Shown: positions 10,792 to 22,849 of the stretch, in pieces
Numbering within the stretch: the first letter of the stretch is position 1
Layout: every line of letters begins with the position of its first letter
IMG/VR virus record: IMGVR_UViG_3300011113_000298
Span: 1-28,109 of that record
Origin: a virus
Direction: 5' to 3' (one strand)
Length of the DNA stretch: 28,109 nucleotides
Made by a program: the position numbers and the translations under genes
Notes under the pieces: model-generated
Database searches by the model: none
The model's input: only the letters and a program-made list of their open reading frames with translations
What the model was told of the DNA's origin: nothing

Positions 10792-13700
10792 TTACTTGGT
10801 AGCTAGTTTCTTGGCTGCTTGTTCGGTGTCTCGAATGCCTAACAAGGTGCCGGTTACAGAGTAAACACGGAACTTGCCGGACGGAGATTTGATGATCCTG
10901 GTGCCGTTGCTGCCTACCATGATGTTAGGCGAAAGCGGGTCAGGCTGGAAGCGGATGTTATACTCCAAAGGGAATTTGTTGATCATCAAATCAACTGGCT
11001 CAATCTTGCCTGACTTTGTTCTGATAAAGTTACGAGGTTCAACGTCACTGATCAATTCTCCAGTGTTTGGATTGTAATAAGTTGATTCAGGTATGTGTTC
11101 ATAATTTTTATGATACGTCATTAGACCTTCTGCCAACTGTTTGAATCCTCGTTTAGCCATGTAATCTCGAATGATCTTAAGGTCTGCTTTATCTCTTGTT
11201 AAAACATCACCTTCGATCTTCTTCATTACCGAAACAATAACTGGTTGACCAAGTTGGTTTTGGACAACCTCTGTAACCTGCCAAGGAACATCAAACCGTT
11301 TGGAGAAAGTAGCAGTTCTGGCTATATATTCAGAAACTGCCGCCTGTCTAAATCTAAGGCGACGAAACTCTTTCTGATCGAATCCTTGTCCGACATCTTC
11401 ATCAATAGTAAAGCCAACTCCAGACTCATCTGATGGTTTTGTGAACTTTAAAACAAAGTCACTATCGTCTGGAATGTAGGTTATATGCTCTCCACCTTGC
11501 TTTACTTTGTGGCTTGGGAACGCATCAATAAATTGTTGTAAGATTGCATCATCGCTTCTGAGTTTTTCTGAGCGAAGTCTGTCCATTTGATCCCGAACTT
11601 GTCCACTAACTTCTGATTGTCTGCTTTGGATAAAATCGGCACCTGCTCCATACGCTTTGGCTGCTTTTGTTGCTTCTGTGTAATACTCCTCATTTACTTT
11701 TTTGGGATTAAATTTTAAAGATCCTCCAAGAATAGAACGGATAGGTGAATCATCAAGACCTTGTTGATCAAAGTTAATACTTGACGCATTAGGTTTGCTT
11801 TGCTCTTGAACTGTAGCCTGAAACCTCATCTCAGTTGGAGATTTAGAGGTGGCAGGCTCCTCCTTCATCGCCTTCTTGGCGAAGTCGTCCTGCCCCTTGC
11901 GCATCGCTGCTTTTTCCGTCGAAGTCGTGCCAATCAGCTCGCCCTGGTCGTCATAGACGCGGTAGAGCTTGCTGCCTACCTTCTTTAGGATGCGGTAGCC
12001 GTCAGGGTTGGTCAGCGTCTCACCAGCAGGGAGGGTTTCCCTGGTGAAGGCGTCGGGTTGGAAATTCTTCATCGCCCGCTCGTGAGTCGTTGCCTCTTCA
12101 AAAGCGAAGCGGTTGCCGGAGTCCTGAAGCTTAGCAAAGCGTTCGACACGGTAGCTTTTCACCGTGTTCTGCGATTTGGAGATAACGCTTTCTGGTGCGT
12201 TCAGTAAGCTTTCATTGTTACGTAAACGGAAGCCAAGAGCCTCATAGAAAAGGTTACGCTTCTTTGCTCCCTTCTCTCCACCACCTAACAAGGTGGCAGA
12301 ATCGACGGGGTTAATCTGCGTGATATTCTCCAGGTAAAGGTTGAAATCCTTCAGAGCTGCCTCAGAGCTAGCATAAACGTCTTTGAATTGAGGCTTGGTC
12401 AGTGCCGTCGCCAAGCGGTCACGAACTTTGGTCATGTCCACCGCTCGAATGATGACACCTTCTTTGCTGTTCATCTCCACCGAGTAGGGCAGGATTTCGT
12501 TCTGGCTAACCGACTTCACGCCAGCAATCATCTTGTTGCTACCTCTGCCACGGTCATAGACGCCATAGTAACGCGTATCAAAGGTTGCCTTGTTGAAGTT
12601 CTGCATGGACGTGAGCACGTCACGCAAGACAGCCTTGGCTGAAGGATCGAGAGTGCCGCTGTCCAGGATGACGTTTAGTGCCTCGGGGCTGAGTTGCCCT
12701 TTGGCTGTCATCACGGTCTTGCCAGTCTTATCGCGGTTGAACTCGATGCCTTTCCTCTCTGTCTCCGGCAGAGCTGCCATTCTCTGTGTCATGTCCTGCC
12801 ATCTAGCCGTTGCCTCTGCTTGAATCTGAGCCGCTGTTTTTGGCGTGTTGTCGTCGTTCAGGATGCCACGAGCACCACCATACGAACGTGCCCAGATGGC
12901 ACGATCAGCGGGATTTACCGGAATAGGGTCTGGTTTGGCTGTAGGTGCCTGCGCTGCTTTGGTGCCACGTGTAGCCAAGGCTCGTTTCACGATGGCATCT
13001 AGCTCTGGAATGCGGATAGGCTTGCCTTTGGCGTCTTTGAAAGTGCGTGTCACGCTGTCAAAGCCTAGATCCATGCCTTTCTCGAACAGCACAGAGCGGA
13101 ACTTATCGAGGATGCTATCCTCTAGCGCGTTTAGAGCATTGCGGTAAACTAGCGGCAACCGGTCAGGATTGAACCTGCCAGGGCGCAAACGGCCAAAAAG
13201 GTTGCCAGTGTAAGCAGCGGACATCTCGTCGGCGATGCTAGTTCTTGCTTTTTCCAGAGATGCGGCATCAGTGGTGTTTCGTAATACGTTTGCATAGCCT
13301 TTAAACCGATTTGCGGCTTTAGTATTATCGCCATAAGCATCGCCAATCTGGTCAGCGATTTTTGCCAAGGCAATGTCATCAAAAAGGCCAGGTCTAACAA
13401 TTTCGCCTGTTACAGGGTCAGCAAGGCCAAAGATAGCCTGTTCAATTTCAGGCTTAAACGCACGATTGATGGCAGAAGAAAAGAGAACATGGGAGGTTTC
13501 ATGGGCTGCGGTATCGCCTAAGATTCGTTCAGGATTGAGAACTAAATCAAAGGCGTTTTCAGTATTAACCCAGCCAGGGTTCTGCCATTGCTTCATCTCG
13601 TCTGGCGTTGCCACACGAACTTTAGCACCATTGGCTTCAGCGATCTTCATCGCGTCAACTTGAGCGGCAGCGCGTTCGAGGCCGACTTGTTCAACCAAGC

Positions 13701-15255
13701 GGTTTATGGTTTGACTCCAGGCAGCTTGTTCGACTTCGGGACGTTCAGCCAAGAAAGTATTCAAGTCACCTGCGGCTTGCTGTCTGGTGCGGCTGGTTGA
13801 TCCGCCTACCATTTCGCGCCCCATGTCAAAGACGCTTCTCATGGTGCCCGTCAGGCCACCAAAAGCAGCTCCTGCGCCTGCGCCTTGTGCAGCTCCTTCC
13901 AGGTTGCGTTCAGCGAGATAGCCAAGGCCAGCGCCAACGGCAGCACCGGCAGCACCTTCCTTTAGAGCCTGTGCAGCGGCTTGGCTAGCACCTCGGAAGA
14001 CTGGCTGAAGTTGAGCAAGGCCACTAGCGAACTTTCTGGCAGCTGGTGAGATGTTAGCATTTTGAGCGGCTTGTTCCAGCAATCCAACGCGAGAGGCTTC
14101 TTTTCTTGCGGCTTGAGTAGCTACCTTAACCACTTCAGCAACCTTCTCGGCTGTTGCTGCTCCTGCTAGAGTGCCAGCAGTCACGCCCATATCTGCTAAA
14201 AAGCTTGTGCCTAAAGCTACGCCTTTAACTGCTGCGCCAGTTCCAGGGGCAATGCTTTCGGCTACATTGCCAAGACCTTGCAAAGCTTGGCCTGGAAGGC
14301 TTGCTGCCGTCTGAACTCCGCTCGCTGCTCGTTCGATGCCAGATAATGCGGCTTGACCTAGGCTGCCTGGAGCTGTGCTCATGCCTCTTGGTATTGGCAT
14401 TGATCCACTTTCCACGGTAAACTGAGCGGCATCACCTGCCGCTTGAGCGATAGCGTCTGCGGTTGTCTTTTTAGCGGCTGCGGTTGCTGCTGGCTTGAAG
14501 ATCGACTTACCTGCTAGCTTGGTCGCCAAAGTACGGACTGCGGCAGAGCCAAGGCCGGTTAAAAGGGTAGGATCAATGTTTTGAGCACCTCGGGCAATTT
14601 CTTCAATAGGTGCGCCTTGTAGTGTGTCCTCGATAGCGTAAAGCCGATCAATCGCATCAGCCGCACGTTGTTTTTCCTGCTGAACTAGAGCTTTGTAATC
14701 AGCCTCCGTATTTACTCCTTGCTTGAATGTGTTACCCATTCCACCCATGCCAAGGAATGCAGCGGATTTAGGGTCAGCCGCTTTGCCGATAAACTCTTCT
14801 TTTTTCGGAATAGGCGCTGTCGGAGTAAGAATCTTTGCAGCAATGTCAGCTAGGCCAATCGTTCCGGCCACTATGCCAGCTCCAGTGGACTCTGCGACTT
14901 TGCCAAACTCACCTTGAGCCGCCGTGTAAGCAGCTGCTCCTAGACCTGTGCCGATCTCATCAATGACGTTGGTGAACGTGTCTTTTGCGATGCCCAAGAA
15001 GTCGCCAAGGCTTGTCTTTTTGTTGGCTAGATATTGATTAAATAAAATGAAATCATCATCTGGCATTTTCCAAACCGGATTAACCCAGTTCCTACTTTCG
15101 ATGGACTGAGCTTTAGCTTGCTCCACCTCAAACGCTACATCTTCGCCTGAGCGTGGGTATTCTTGATCAATCGCCGCTTGAATCTCCTGCTCCGTCATGG
15201 AGTCGGGAAACTCTAGCTCAACATCGCGTGACGGAAGAGAAACTGTGATTGGCAT
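10792..15255 (-). CDS. Giant polyvalent-type internal virion protein with zincin motif and kinase-like region
   Basis: This 1487-residue protein is the largest in the window. Residues 1-35 (VSLPSRDVELEFPDSMTEQE) match an N-terminal motif of large phage ejection proteins. Residues 100-480 are Ala/Gly-rich with hydrophobic stretches. DTAAHETSHV at 581-590 is a zincin HExxH, with a possible third ligand in ADEMSAAY (Glu677). Residues 1254-1430 resemble a kinase: GGEHITYI, VLKFTK (Lys1270), SDVEPRNF (Asp1404, Asn1409) and IEPVDL (Asp1422). A short module occurs twice, at about 1087-1120 and 1452-1485. Known polyvalent proteins combine such domains and are thought to enter the host with phage DNA. 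Activities are inferred from motifs. Confidence 0.8.
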   Translation of the reverse strand: MPITVSLPSRDVELEFPDSMTEQEIQAAIDQEYPRSGEDVAFEVEQAKAQSIESRNWVNPVWKMPDDDFILFNQYLANKKTSLGDFLGIAKDTFTNVIDEIGTGLGAAAYTAAQGEFGKVAESTGAGIVAGTIGLADIAAKILTPTAPIPKKEEFIGKAADPKSAAFLGMGGMGNTFKQGVNTEADYKALVQQEKQRAADAIDRLYAIEDTLQGAPIEEIARGAQNIDPTLLTGLGSAAVRTLATKLAGKSIFKPAATAAAKKTTADAIAQAAGDAAQFTVESGSMPIPRGMSTAPGSLGQAALSGIERAASGVQTAASLPGQALQGLGNVAESIAPGTGAAVKGVALGTSFLADMGVTAGTLAGAATAEKVAEVVKVATQAARKEASRVGLLEQAAQNANISPAARKFASGLAQLQPVFRGASQAAAQALKEGAAGAAVGAGLGYLAERNLEGAAQGAGAGAAFGGLTGTMRSVFDMGREMVGGSTSRTRQQAAGDLNTFLAERPEVEQAAWSQTINRLVEQVGLERAAAQVDAMKIAEANGAKVRVATPDEMKQWQNPGWVNTENAFDLVLNPERILGDTAAHETSHVLFSSAINRAFKPEIEQAIFGLADPVTGEIVRPGLFDDIALAKIADQIGDAYGDNTKAANRFKGYANVLRNTTDAASLEKARTSIADEMSAAYTGNLFGRLRPGRFNPDRLPLVYRNALNALEDSILDKFRSVLFEKGMDLGFDSVTRTFKDAKGKPIRIPELDAIVKRALATRGTKAAQAPTAKPDPIPVNPADRAIWARSYGGARGILNDDNTPKTAAQIQAEATARWQDMTQRMAALPETERKGIEFNRDKTGKTVMTAKGQLSPEALNVILDSGTLDPSAKAVLRDVLTSMQNFNKATFDTRYYGVYDRGRGSNKMIAGVKSVSQNEILPYSVEMNSKEGVIIRAVDMTKVRDRLATALTKPQFKDVYASSEAALKDFNLYLENITQINPVDSATLLGGGEKGAKKRNLFYEALGFRLRNNESLLNAPESVISKSQNTVKSYRVERFAKLQDSGNRFAFEEATTHERAMKNFQPDAFTRETLPAGETLTNPDGYRILKKVGSKLYRVYDDQGELIGTTSTEKAAMRKGQDDFAKKAMKEEPATSKSPTEMRFQATVQEQSKPNASSINFDQQGLDDSPIRSILGGSLKFNPKKVNEEYYTEATKAAKAYGAGADFIQSRQSEVSGQVRDQMDRLRSEKLRSDDAILQQFIDAFPSHKVKQGGEHITYIPDDSDFVLKFTKPSDESGVGFTIDEDVGQGFDQKEFRRLRFRQAAVSEYIARTATFSKRFDVPWQVTEVVQNQLGQPVIVSVMKKIEGDVLTRDKADLKIIRDYMAKRGFKQLAEGLMTYHKNYEHIPESTYYNPNTGELISDVEPRNFIRTKSGKIEPVDLMINKFPLEYNIRFQPDPLSPNIMVGSNGTRIIKSPSGKFRVYSVTGTLLGIRDTEQAAKKLATK

Positions 15256-15256
15256 G

Positions 15257-16273
15257 TTATTGAAAGCCTTTACCTGGGATGAATACTCGTCGTGTAGGTC
15301 CGCTTTGAGTTGCTGGCGTCATTTGCTCTCCTGAGCCGCTACGTTTTGCAGCAAGTTCGTTGAACAAGTTTTGCAGGTTTCTGACGCTCTTCAAAGCTTG
15401 TTCGTCAGTTCCAGAAAGGTTGATGCCAGAAAGTGCAGCCTTGATGGATGCTCGCTCTGAGTCAGAGAAAGAGCCTTGATTCTCAAATAGGCTTGCACCA
15501 ATCGCGCCAACTTTGTCAGCGACAATTTCCAAGTCTTTGCGAATGCCAGCTGGTTGATTTTTAATCCCCCAATTAGACAAAGCTTGGTAGAATGAGCCGC
15601 TCATTCCAGTTGCGCTTTGAAATGAAGACTCCCTTTCCTGTCTGAGTTTCTTCTGCTGTTCTGTTTCGTTAGGTGAAGGAGCTGGCCCAATCAATTCTTC
15701 AATGCTTTGAATCCCACTTTGCAAAAGCATCGCTGGATTGATCTTGACCTCGCCTTCAGAGGGAAGATCAACAACTTTGCCGTCCATCACGCCTTTTCCT
15801 GGAACCGGCTTACCGGTCGCAGCATTGATCAATGGAACCGCCGTTGCTTGTGGTATAGCCGGTTGCGCGGCTTGGATGAACTGAGGAGAACTCATGCCGC
15901 CACCCATGACCATTACTTGGTTAGTTCCTGGAATAGGTTCAACTCGAATTGGTGCTTGAGGCCGCTCAATCGCTGGCGCTTCGCCGTAAAGCATGGCTAC
16001 ATCTTCCATGGCTTTTTTTTGAGCTACTTCCATTAAGCCAAGCTTCGCCACTCGCTCAGCACCTCCAGCTTGTTGGATCAGCTCCTGCATTCGGCTTTGA
16101 ATGAGATTGACGTATTCTTGACGAGCTGGCGAAGGTCTTAATTGTGGCGCTACCTGTTGTGCAGGCTGTGGCGCATAGCTGGACAAATCAGGCTGCTGTT
16201 GTTGAGGAACAGGAATACCCATTTGGGCATAGTAGCTCAGAGCTTCGGGGGAGAGTGTGCCTGGGGTTGCCAT
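15257..16273 (-). CDS. Internal/ejection-type virion protein
   Basis: This 338-residue protein is Gln-, Pro- and Ala-rich at the N-terminus (YAQMGIPVPQQQQPDLSSYA) and has helical segments later (EQQKKLRQERESSFQ; DEQALKSVRNLQNLFNELAAK). I know no named family. It lies one base upstream of the 1487-residue protein and follows other Gln/Ala-rich proteins, the usual place and composition of podoviral internal or ejection proteins. The message contains an A8 run around 16013-16020 that could promote slippage, but no useful alternative frame is evident. Confidence 0.65.
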   Translation of the reverse strand: MATPGTLSPEALSYYAQMGIPVPQQQQPDLSSYAPQPAQQVAPQLRPSPARQEYVNLIQSRMQELIQQAGGAERVAKLGLMEVAQKKAMEDVAMLYGEAPAIERPQAPIRVEPIPGTNQVMVMGGGMSSPQFIQAAQPAIPQATAVPLINAATGKPVPGKGVMDGKVVDLPSEGEVKINPAMLLQSGIQSIEELIGPAPSPNETEQQKKLRQERESSFQSATGMSGSFYQALSNWGIKNQPAGIRKDLEIVADKVGAIGASLFENQGSFSDSERASIKAALSGINLSGTDEQALKSVRNLQNLFNELAAKRSGSGEQMTPATQSGPTRRVFIPGKGFQ

Positions 16274-16278
16274 GATGT

Positions 16279-16794
16279 TTATCTTCCGAAAAGAATTGGA
16301 TTAGGTGTGCCGTTTCCAGTTGGCAAGGGTAAGCCCCAACCTTGAAGCACTGAGTTTCTTTCTTGCTGAAATCCCTGCATCTGCTGTGCTCGCTGAGCTG
16401 CCTGTTGCTGCATGTCGAAGGCCATCTTCTCGCGGCGCAGTCTTTCCATCAGTAAGGCGTTTTGTTGGGCGGACTGGATGTCTTTCACGAACTGCCCAGA
16501 CTGAGCCGTATTCATCTGCCCCAGGTTGGCATAACGCTCCGTCAAAACAGGGTCAATCGGCTGGCCGGTCACTTGGCTAAGCTGTTCGAGTTGAGCCATG
16601 CCAGTCTGGGCTGCGTCACGGTTGATTCCACCAAGCTCTTTGTTTTGGTAGTATTTATCAATGACGCCAGCAGTGGCTTTGCCAAGACCTTCGATGGCTT
16701 TGGCGTAGTTGTCACCAACGCGCATCTGAGCTTCCATCCAGCCTTGGGGAAGCACTTGGTAGCCACCAGTATAAGAAGCAAAAGGAGTCGCCAT
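16279..16794 (-). CDS. Small internal/ejection-type virion protein
   Basis: This 171-residue protein (MATPFASYTGGYQVLPQGWM) has an N-terminal helix (GDNYAKAIEGLGKATAGVID) and a long Gln-rich helical region (MAFDMQQQAAQRAQQMQGFQ). The composition is like the neighbouring proteins encoded at 15257-16273 and 17599-18459. The position, one base after the PAPS-reductase-like gene and before the next ejection-type gene, suggests a virion interior protein. No family recognised; the role is inferred from context. Confidence 0.6.
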   Translation of the reverse strand: MATPFASYTGGYQVLPQGWMEAQMRVGDNYAKAIEGLGKATAGVIDKYYQNKELGGINRDAAQTGMAQLEQLSQVTGQPIDPVLTERYANLGQMNTAQSGQFVKDIQSAQQNALLMERLRREKMAFDMQQQAAQRAQQMQGFQQERNSVLQGWGLPLPTGNGTPNPILFGR

Positions 16795-16795
16795 A

Positions 16796-17599
16796 TTAGT
16801 CTTGCATGTAAGTCAGCTTTTCCTGTGCAGCCCAAGGCACAAGGTGAGCAATGTTTTCAACGGTCATTCCAAGCTTGGGGCATGGCACGAATTTAGCAGC
16901 GTTCTCGCGTCGATCAAGACAGCGAGTGCAGGCATGAACATAATCGACGTTATGCAGTTTGTTAGCCTTTTCCTGCCAGCCGTCAGCGGTCTTTTCGTAT
17001 CGCTTGTCGTCGTAAGGCACTCCATGGCTCTCCAGGTATTCCCAAACGTCATTATGCGTCCAGTCACGCAAAGGAAAGAGCATCGTGGCTTGACCGGGAA
17101 CGAATCGAGCCTCAATCCTGGTGCCTGCGTCTCCGCCTAGAATAGGGTCAGAGTCGCAGCCTTTGTGGCCTATCCAAAGAGCTTGGAACGGCTGCATCTC
17201 AAGCGCTTGCTGTTTAGGACGCTTCAGGATGTCCAGAGCACATGCCCAGGGGGCGTTTTCGACGGGTTCTACGATGCCGGTCGGGCAGGTCAGCGAGGTG
17301 CTATTGAGTTGGTAAAGGTTCTGAACCTCAAACTCATCATTGGTTTGCTGAAAAGCGGACTCCTGGGGATGCCAGGTGTAAACCAAGAGCTTCCAGTCAC
17401 GAATCAGCTTATCATGGAACTCGTATTTCCACGGCTGCCAAGGCTCACGGAAGAAGATCAACGGCAGGTCAATGCCCATGCTCCGCATGATGTGAAGCAG
17501 GGCCATGCTATCCTTTCCACCAGACCAACAAACCAAGCTGTTAGGAAAGTGGCGGATGCCATCTGCAATGAGTTGACGCGTTTTGTCGAGTTTGGTCAT
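16796..17599 (-). CDS. PAPS-reductase-family (adenine nucleotide alpha hydrolase) protein
   Basis: This 267-residue protein has the PP-loop SGGKDS at residues 26-31 and the family motif FPLRDWTHNDVWEYLESHGV at 175-194, followed by PYDDKRY, as in phosphoadenosine phosphosulfate reductases. The C-terminus carries CTRC at 224-227 and a third Cys at 240 (VPCPKLG), which could bind metal or an iron-sulfur cluster. The CxxC arrangement differs from the ECGLH active-site tail of assimilatory reductases, so sulfate reduction is not assured. Sulfur transfer to tRNA or DNA is an alternative. It overlaps the upstream gene by one base and lies among ejection-type genes. Confidence 0.85.
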   Translation of the reverse strand: MTKLDKTRQLIADGIRHFPNSLVCWSGGKDSMALLHIMRSMGIDLPLIFFREPWQPWKYEFHDKLIRDWKLLVYTWHPQESAFQQTNDEFEVQNLYQLNSTSLTCPTGIVEPVENAPWACALDILKRPKQQALEMQPFQALWIGHKGCDSDPILGGDAGTRIEARFVPGQATMLFPLRDWTHNDVWEYLESHGVPYDDKRYEKTADGWQEKANKLHNVDYVHACTRCLDRRENAAKFVPCPKLGMTVENIAHLVPWAAQEKLTYMQD

Positions 17600-22079: not shown

Positions 22080-22640
22080 TCAAGACGTGGCTTCTGCGTG
22101 CATGGCATCTCTGCCCCAGAATGCACCCGCTGACTTCCAGCCTTCCTTGGCAAAGGTTTCCATCACTTCTAACGGCATAGTAGCGCGAATCGGCCACACA
22201 GTGTGGTTGCCGTTTGTCGATGGCGCTAGATCAATCGCAGCACCTCGGGCATGTAGGCTGGGCAGACTTCCTCCTCTCATCGCGCGGTTGTTGAAAACTC
22301 CAGCATATTCTTTCAACAGTTCGGGATGGCTTTCTGCTAGGCTTTTAAGGATTCGCCCCAAACTATCTGCCACTTTGTGATGGCAGCGAATGCTAGAGAC
22401 TGGCTTCCCGTCGAACCGGATGCCTAGCCCTTTCACATTAAGGTTGGTTAGCTGCGATTCATCGCCAGGAGCACCATAAAAAGCGGTTAGGCTTTTCTGG
22501 TCTGGCTTCGGCCATGGATTAGGCTTCGGCATCAAAGCAAGCAGGTAACGCTGACAAGCAGCAATGGATTTTGGACCCCAGAAGCCATCAGGCTCAGTGC
22601 CAATCTTCTCCTGAATGCGTTTGATGCCGTAGGTTGTCAC
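22080..22640 (-). CDS. Endolysin, M15 (VanY/L-Ala-D-Glu type) peptidase
   Basis: This 186-residue enzyme should cut peptidoglycan cross-peptides at lysis. Residues 1-34 (GIKRIQEKIGTEPDGFWGPK) look like a degenerate peptidoglycan-binding repeat. The catalytic domain has SLPSLHARGAAIDLAP at 125-140, giving the zinc ligands His130 and Asp137, and MHAEA at 180-184 with His181, in the M15 order S-x-H-x6-D ... H. No signal peptide is visible, so release would depend on the holin. The GTG start overlaps the stop of the holin candidate (GTGA). Confidence 0.88.
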   Translation of the reverse strand: MTTYGIKRIQEKIGTEPDGFWGPKSIAACQRYLLALMPKPNPWPKPDQKSLTAFYGAPGDESQLTNLNVKGLGIRFDGKPVSSIRCHHKVADSLGRILKSLAESHPELLKEYAGVFNNRAMRGGSLPSLHARGAAIDLAPSTNGNHTVWPIRATMPLEVMETFAKEGWKSAGAFWGRDAMHAEATS

Positions 22641-22849
22641 TTCTTCGGAGTGATAGCGACAAGAGCAACGCCAGCAGCGGCTTGAACGAGTTCACCGACT
22701 ACGTTGGACATCTCGGGAGGCAGAGGAACGCCAAAGGCAGTCAGGATCGTAACAAGGCCAAGCCAGGTCGATTTCTCGCGGAGTTTGGAGAGGATTATTT
22801 TCATATTCTTCGAGGGGTAGAATAGCGGTGTGTAGTTAGGCCGTTTCAC
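22637..22849 (-). CDS. Holin candidate, two short membrane segments
   Basis: This 70-residue protein has hydrophobic segments at about 29-43 (WLGLVTILTAFGVPLPP) and 53-67 (LVQAAAGVALVAI), and a short charged end (TPKK), as in small phage holins. It lies directly before the endolysin with a GTGA overlap, and its own GTG start overlaps the upstream stop by GTGA. A shorter start at the ATG at 22804 (MKIILSKLREKSTWLG) would look more like known holins. Both are possible. It would form membrane pores that release the endolysin. Confidence 0.7.
   Translation of the reverse strand: MKRPNYTPLFYPSKNMKIILSKLREKSTWLGLVTILTAFGVPLPPEMSNVVGELVQAAAGVALVAITPKK

Follow-up and report, generated by a model that had tools for sequence, protein, structure and literature searches.

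A swappable effector cassette between repeated peptide seams in a phage polyvalent protein with a zincin-like site

The window, as the DNA considered here is called, corresponds to an IMG/VR virus record of 28.1 kb (IMGVR_UViG_3300011113_000298; 28,109 nucleotides). An open reading frame (ORF) check of the window confirmed a single minus-strand gene (10792-15255) with an ATG start and a stop codon, encoding a large polyvalent protein of 1487 residues; the features of this gene described below all lie on that strand. The original prediction had joined a zincin motif and a kinase-like region in this protein, and its landmark residues HETSH (585-589), K1270, DVEPRN (1404-1409) and PVD (1420-1422) are all found where it placed them. 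It overlooked the main feature of the protein, which is a swappable cassette lying between RFQP seams and duplicated tail modules.

When viral contigs were searched iteratively, they returned 13 distinct complete-core proteins, the window's included, in addition to two C-terminal fragments (L022 and L030) and one further member (L103). They fall into two core types that are approximately 30% identical, and the set reaches down to 28% identity. No relative of the protein was found among 50,697 annotated phages or in prokaryote genome contigs; the large late gene of phage C75C1 was considered and rejected, being unrelated by profile. Judged by alignment, residues 1-1063 are the constant part of the protein and contain an N-terminal motif, a Gly-rich region, the zincin and a middle domain. 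About 115 of these 1063 residues are invariant across the 13 cores.

Beyond the core, comparison with the relative L001 reveals an exchange. The DNA of the two is 89% identical as far as residue 1136; this identity returns at residue 1433 and runs on into the next genes, and between these flanks the window has a kinase-like cassette (residues 1144-1434; 10954..11826) where L001 has an ART domain (ART-PolyVal, E 4.9e-9). The same slot holds two ARTs in L002, an ART and a kinase in L011, LPD37 in L014 (E 3e-18), GNAT in L031 (E 1.4e-6), a single ART in each of L022, L029 and L030, and elsewhere several unnamed domains, with one to three cassettes in combination. L032 and L033, with cores of 29% identity, share an unnamed cassette of 262 residues that is 92.7% identical. 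The presence of Pfam-recognised polyvalent domains (ART-PolyVal, LPD37 and GNAT) in this slot bears out the description of the protein as polyvalent-type. One small tail module occurs twice, on either side of the slot. Copy 1 (residues 1064-1122; 11890..12066) starts NFQPDAF and aligns with copy 2 (residues 1435-1487; 10795..10953), the C-terminus of the protein, with a score of 64 against a maximum of 51 in 2000 shuffles; copy 2 is modelled with a predicted local distance difference test (pLDDT) score of 69-89. The duplication is present in all six proteins tested. Over the last 100 core residues the core types are 26% identical, a figure that rises to 70% in tail copy 1 and 74% in copy 2, and where pairs were compared across core types, DNA similarity restarts no more than one or two codons from the FQP codons. 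The idea that unrelated phages had deeply exchanged their tails was rejected, because the backbone DNA flanking the gene on both sides is approximately 70-80% identical; the core, together with the genes preceding it, is therefore itself an exchanged module. Between the two tail-module copies lies an effector slot, and the kinase is one of the interchangeable cassettes that it takes.

The joints of these modules carry a short peptide. In the window protein the seam before the cassette is RFQA (residues 1144-1147; 11815..11826) and the seam after it is RFQP (residues 1435-1438; 10942..10953). Across the family, modules start with RFQP or a near variant, and [RM]FQ[PA] occurs two to three times per protein vs. 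0.03-0.05 times in shuffled sequences. Every codon for Arg (six), Gln (two) and Pro (four) is used in seams of this type, which points to selection on the peptide rather than on a DNA site. A DNA recombination site was accordingly rejected as the cause of seam conservation, although short homology at the seams may aid exchange.

Are such seams peculiar to this family? Related ART domains at 80 loci yielded 58 ART-bearing proteins that are non-redundant and lie outside the window protein's family, and the tetrapeptide lying 8-11 residues past the ART end was sought elsewhere in the same protein. It recurs in 29/58 (mean 11.2 and maximum 21 for random windows in 1000 trials) and has at least two extra copies in 12/58 (mean 1.0, maximum 5, likewise in 1000 trials), figures that count tetrapeptide copies only, in proteins of which many are contig fragments and whose ART end has a common consensus (...DIRFS). 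The peptides occur 0.81 times per own protein vs. 0.06 times per other protein, where they are thus approximately 13 times rarer. Examples are AASL, present five times in L076 and written with five different codon sets, RSRG (five copies in L094), SFSI (five copies in L097) and FSPA (four copies in L064); codons differ between seam copies in other ART-bearing proteins also. Phage G052 (L115 and L116) has a frame of 9598 residues in which LYSAA/LFSAA appears seven times at a spacing of 185-360 residues, and its PF18762 kinase sits between two of these copies. Protein-specific repeated seams therefore occur in other phage polyvalent proteins, and a repeated peptide at module junctions, as in viral-type polyproteins, is found here. 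Uniformity within a protein and difference between proteins is the pattern that would be expected if a phage-specific factor recognised the seam.

A candidate for such a factor lies within the core of the window protein. The zincin-like metallopeptidase domain spans approximately residues 490-700 (13156..13788) and is delimited by conservation and by the order of predicted secondary structure. It includes HETSH (residues 585-589; 13489..13503), the predicted zinc-binding HExxH, and D676-E677 (13225..13230), of which E677, on a predicted helix, is the predicted third zinc ligand. H585, E586, H589, D676 and E677 are invariant in 13/13 cores (28-90% identity), while the two residues inside the motif vary (HETSH, HEATH, HETAH, HEGTH, HEVFH, HETTH and HESAH). 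The chance expectation of HExxH in this protein, which contains only seven His, is 0.002. Zincin-like metallopeptidases (MPTases) of polyvalent proteins are characterized by HEXXH followed by a Glu on a later conserved helix (PMC5512222), and both are present. The predicted elements follow the zincin core order (N-terminal helix, three strands, two C-terminal helices), and the AlphaFold core model is moderate in the zincin part only (pLDDT up to 87; 54.6 for the whole model), with no significant match by Foldseek or VIA-align of the core model. No Pfam, NCBIfam or PHROG peptidase profile matched the polyvalent protein, and the domain is therefore called zincin-like and filed under no named family. 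The zincin motif of the original prediction is thus well backed by invariant residues and predicted secondary structure, with no fold match, and metallopeptidase function is likely on these grounds.

The kinase-like region is a more divergent case. The top Pfam match of the cassette is PF18762 Kinase-PolyVal (E 0.002-0.006, 18.1-18.6 bits), with E 0.0019 over residues 1355-1424, and this match is lost in reversed and shuffled cassette controls; the PF18762 scan covered 50 of the fetched phage records. K1270 (11446..11448) is the predicted ATP-binding Lys, D1404-x4-N1409 (11029..11046) the predicted catalytic loop, lying within the PF18762 match, and D1422 (10990..10992) the predicted metal-binding Asp; these residues and E1309 are all retained in the 50%-identical cassette of L011. 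The half of the cassette running from GGEH to VLK is matched by the G052 kinase, a Pfam-accepted PF18762 member (33 bits; single-comparison E 0.0018), whose VLK aligns with K1270. The Glu before strand 2 that is a feature of PF18762 is supplied by E1256 in GGEH (GAEH in the G052 kinase), and the C-terminal subdomain lost in this family is absent here too, the cassette ending 12 residues past D1422 and the seam and tail starting at 13. Polyvalent kinases without a C-lobe are a known type, and Kinase-PolyVal has been reported mainly from phages of Verrucomicrobia, Chlamydia and Bacteroidetes (PMC5512222). The cassette differs from the family in its score, 18.6 bits against a gathering cut-off of 27. 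PF18762 has a conserved His, followed by an insert, ahead of the catalytic Asp; His residues occur in the window cassette but none is kept in L011. With a score below the cut-off, the cassette is said to work like Kinase-PolyVal and is not filed as a member. The kinase-like region of the original prediction thus stands as to its catalytic residues and best profile match, which remains sub-threshold and has no usable structure model behind it. It is improbable that the cassette has some other fold in which D-x4-N...D arose by chance, but several results lean that way and count against the kinase assignment: the sub-threshold score, a L011 cassette that itself gives no PF18762 match, a poor AlphaFold model (pLDDT 45.6, from two sequences), no Foldseek support for a kinase fold in that model, and a D-x4-N-x12-D pattern that arises in 2.5% of shuffled cassettes and is weaker alone than HExxH. 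A chance origin does not explain why PF18762 leads the Pfam matches and vanishes in the controls, why an accepted PolyVal kinase matches the GGEH...VLK half, or why the cassette ends where kinases without a C-lobe are expected to end. The cassette is probably a divergent, minimal polyvalent-type kinase without a C-lobe. It is more doubtful still that zincin and kinase are inactive scaffolds for packaging or for assembly of an ejection channel, an explanation at odds with metal-ligand residues that stay invariant over 28-90% identity while their neighbours vary.

How might these parts work together? The reading favored here, with moderate confidence, is that of a polyvalent protein with a polyprotein-like design whose seams are cut, in the window protein's family most likely by its own zincin. 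The whole protein would be packaged and ejected with the DNA into the host; the seams would then be cut, separating the effectors from the core, and the freed kinase could phosphorylate host proteins early in infection. Its own zincin is the best candidate protease for the seams of this family because its site is unchanged in all the cores and because, between the portal and capsid genes of a 38.8-kb relative, no prohead protease was recognised. Cassette exchange at the seams, tail duplication, a seam kept as peptide and not as DNA, conservation of the zincin site and the protein-specific seams of other phage polyvalent proteins are observed; injection, cutting and the enzyme activities are inferred. 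Several points weigh against this account: cutting at the seams is itself deduced rather than seen as cleavage; N4 virion RNA polymerase (vRNAP) and plasmid ArdC/TraC1, which bear such zincins, travel unprocessed (PMC5512222); and repeated seams are not commoner in proteins with HExxH (18/29 vs. 19/29, many of them contig fragments), so that a zincin in cis is not generally tied to seams among the 58 proteins. The last point would suit an explanation in which the seams are cut or bound in trans and the zincin acts as an effector on host proteins, which it cleaves; the factor in trans could be a packaging chaperone or a protease, either of the host or another one of the phage. Giant phages do process ejected proteins by a trans-acting prohead protease with a fixed motif (PMC5694885), and a related phage encodes a small stand-alone HELMH protein (HELMHAAL; L117:5644-6006, plus strand) next to a helicase gene, possibly a separate zincin. 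The lack of a recognised prohead protease in the 38.8-kb relative and a zincin site unchanged in all 13 cores of the family argue against action in trans, which is considered unlikely. A little less likely again, the seams could be uncut linkers that let domains recombine in frame, with the whole protein acting uncleaved after ejection. N4 vRNAP is packaged whole (PMC5512222), exchange breakpoints do coincide with seams, and a 44-bp seam-containing stretch is 93% identical between L001, before its ART, and L011, before its kinase. A linker, however, requires neither a fixed RFQP nor a protein-specific sequence, whereas the peptide is kept though its codons vary, and each of the unrelated phages repeats a seam peptide of its own, in keeping with a factor that recognises it.

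Like the phage-type polyvalent proteins described by Iyer et al. (2017; PMC5512222), the window protein is a large late-gene product, encoded with phage structural genes, in which unrelated effectors accompany a zincin-like MPTase, and its family draws on the same cassette types (ART, kinase, GNAT and LPD37). Disparate activities are combined in one polypeptide, a zincin site with a kinase-like region in the window protein and with ART, GNAT or LPD37 in its relatives. That the zincin processes the multidomain protein was proposed by the same authors, who drew a comparison with viral polyproteins, and cassette recombination was already suggested for Verrucomicrobium (PMC5512222). The window family differs in its defined slot, duplicated flanking tail module and repeated phage-specific seams, an arrangement not found in PMC5512222 or in the other literature searched, coverage of which was incomplete; in that literature no cut sites for zincin processing of polyvalent proteins are described and processing is so far a proposal only. 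Polyvalent proteins, their kinases and the zincin-processing idea are thus known, and the fixed slot with duplicated tail and the protein-specific seams appear new against the literature searched. Polymorphic toxin systems (Zhang et al. 2012; PMC3482391) resemble the window family in having an N-terminal part that is constant and C-terminal effector cassettes that recombine; the window family differs in that its protein is encoded in a phage late operon, with a conserved tail module after the cassettes and up to three of these in tandem. N4 vRNAP is likewise a giant ejected phage protein with a HExxH zincin region (PMC12633501), but it is packaged unprocessed (PMC5512222) and no RNA polymerase domain was found in the window protein. 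More tentatively, and with some doubt, many phage polyvalent proteins may be true polyproteins with a line-specific cleavage peptide (RFQP, LYSAA, NAASL, VRSRG or SFSI) co-evolving with a phage-specific protease, their effectors passing between phages as cassettes bounded by seams and being freed individually in the host. For many phages the repeated seams provide exact, testable candidate cut sites, and they offer a simple way of dividing giant proteins into individual effectors that can be assayed; the slot shows how phages trade early host-takeover enzymes between conserved joints. Pasteurella phage Pmp11 (L020), annotated with a misc_feature only, nevertheless encodes a polyvalent-type protein of 2271 residues with ART, HELAH and a DIRYS junction.

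A third activity had been suggested for residues 900-1080, in a region whose sequence FDTRYYGVYDRGRG does start at residue 892 as described. A middle domain was delimited here at residues 854-983 (12307..12696) by hmmsearch matches to L075 (6e-7) and L068 (1.4e-6), two other zincin-bearing polyvalent proteins whose corresponding region is matched by residues ~861-978 of the window protein. Only four residues (F, P, D and N) are invariant over seven aligned sequences, and FDTRYYGVY is lost in the second core type, which has FNTVNNPVY. With no conserved catalytic set, a third enzyme is not supported, and the region looks like a conserved companion domain. L068 and L075 are polyvalent proteins distinct from the window protein's family, with which they have the order zincin, middle domain, ART in common. 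The core begins with the N-terminal motif (residues 1-35, MPITVSLPSRDVELEFPD...; 15151..15255), in which M1, P2, S9, R10, F16, P17, D18 and I25 are invariant in the 13 cores. An Ala/Gly-rich region follows (residues 90-480; 13816..14988) with hydropathy maxima near residues 125 and 346 and a Gly-zipper segment at 430-470 (PF13441, E 9.7e-4, below cut-off). Pfam matches to HrpE, YscO and Gly-zipper families were set aside as coiled-coil or low-complexity hits below or near cut-off.

The polyvalent gene closes a late block that also holds the major capsid protein (phrog_1328): a P22 gp10-like tail gene is followed by several short genes and then by the polyvalent gene, after which comes a metallophosphoesterase gene. 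The original prediction called the short genes ejection-type, a label that comes from their position, as they have no Pfam or PHROG match. The window shares with P22-like podoviruses its gp10-like stabilization protein, and the related phage G003 has the major capsid (E 1.5e-40) and portal (1.5e-7) of SU10-like podoviruses; the polyvalent protein, matching nothing in the 50,697 phage records, sets it apart from both. Two short genes before the polyvalent gene (15222-16705, minus strand) have strongly diverged between the window and L001, flanked on both sides by DNA that is approximately 83-93% identical, and by this comparison form what is taken as a second hypervariable block. A gene resembling 3'-phosphoadenosine-5'-phosphosulfate (PAPS) reductase (16796-17599, minus strand) lies within the putative ejection-gene block and is retained in relatives (PF01507, E 9e-13 in L118:6610-7410). 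Further along, a Peptidase M15_4-like endolysin (E 4e-6) is encoded at 22080-22640 (minus strand), and a short hydrophobic holin-like ORF (22637-22849) comes after it.
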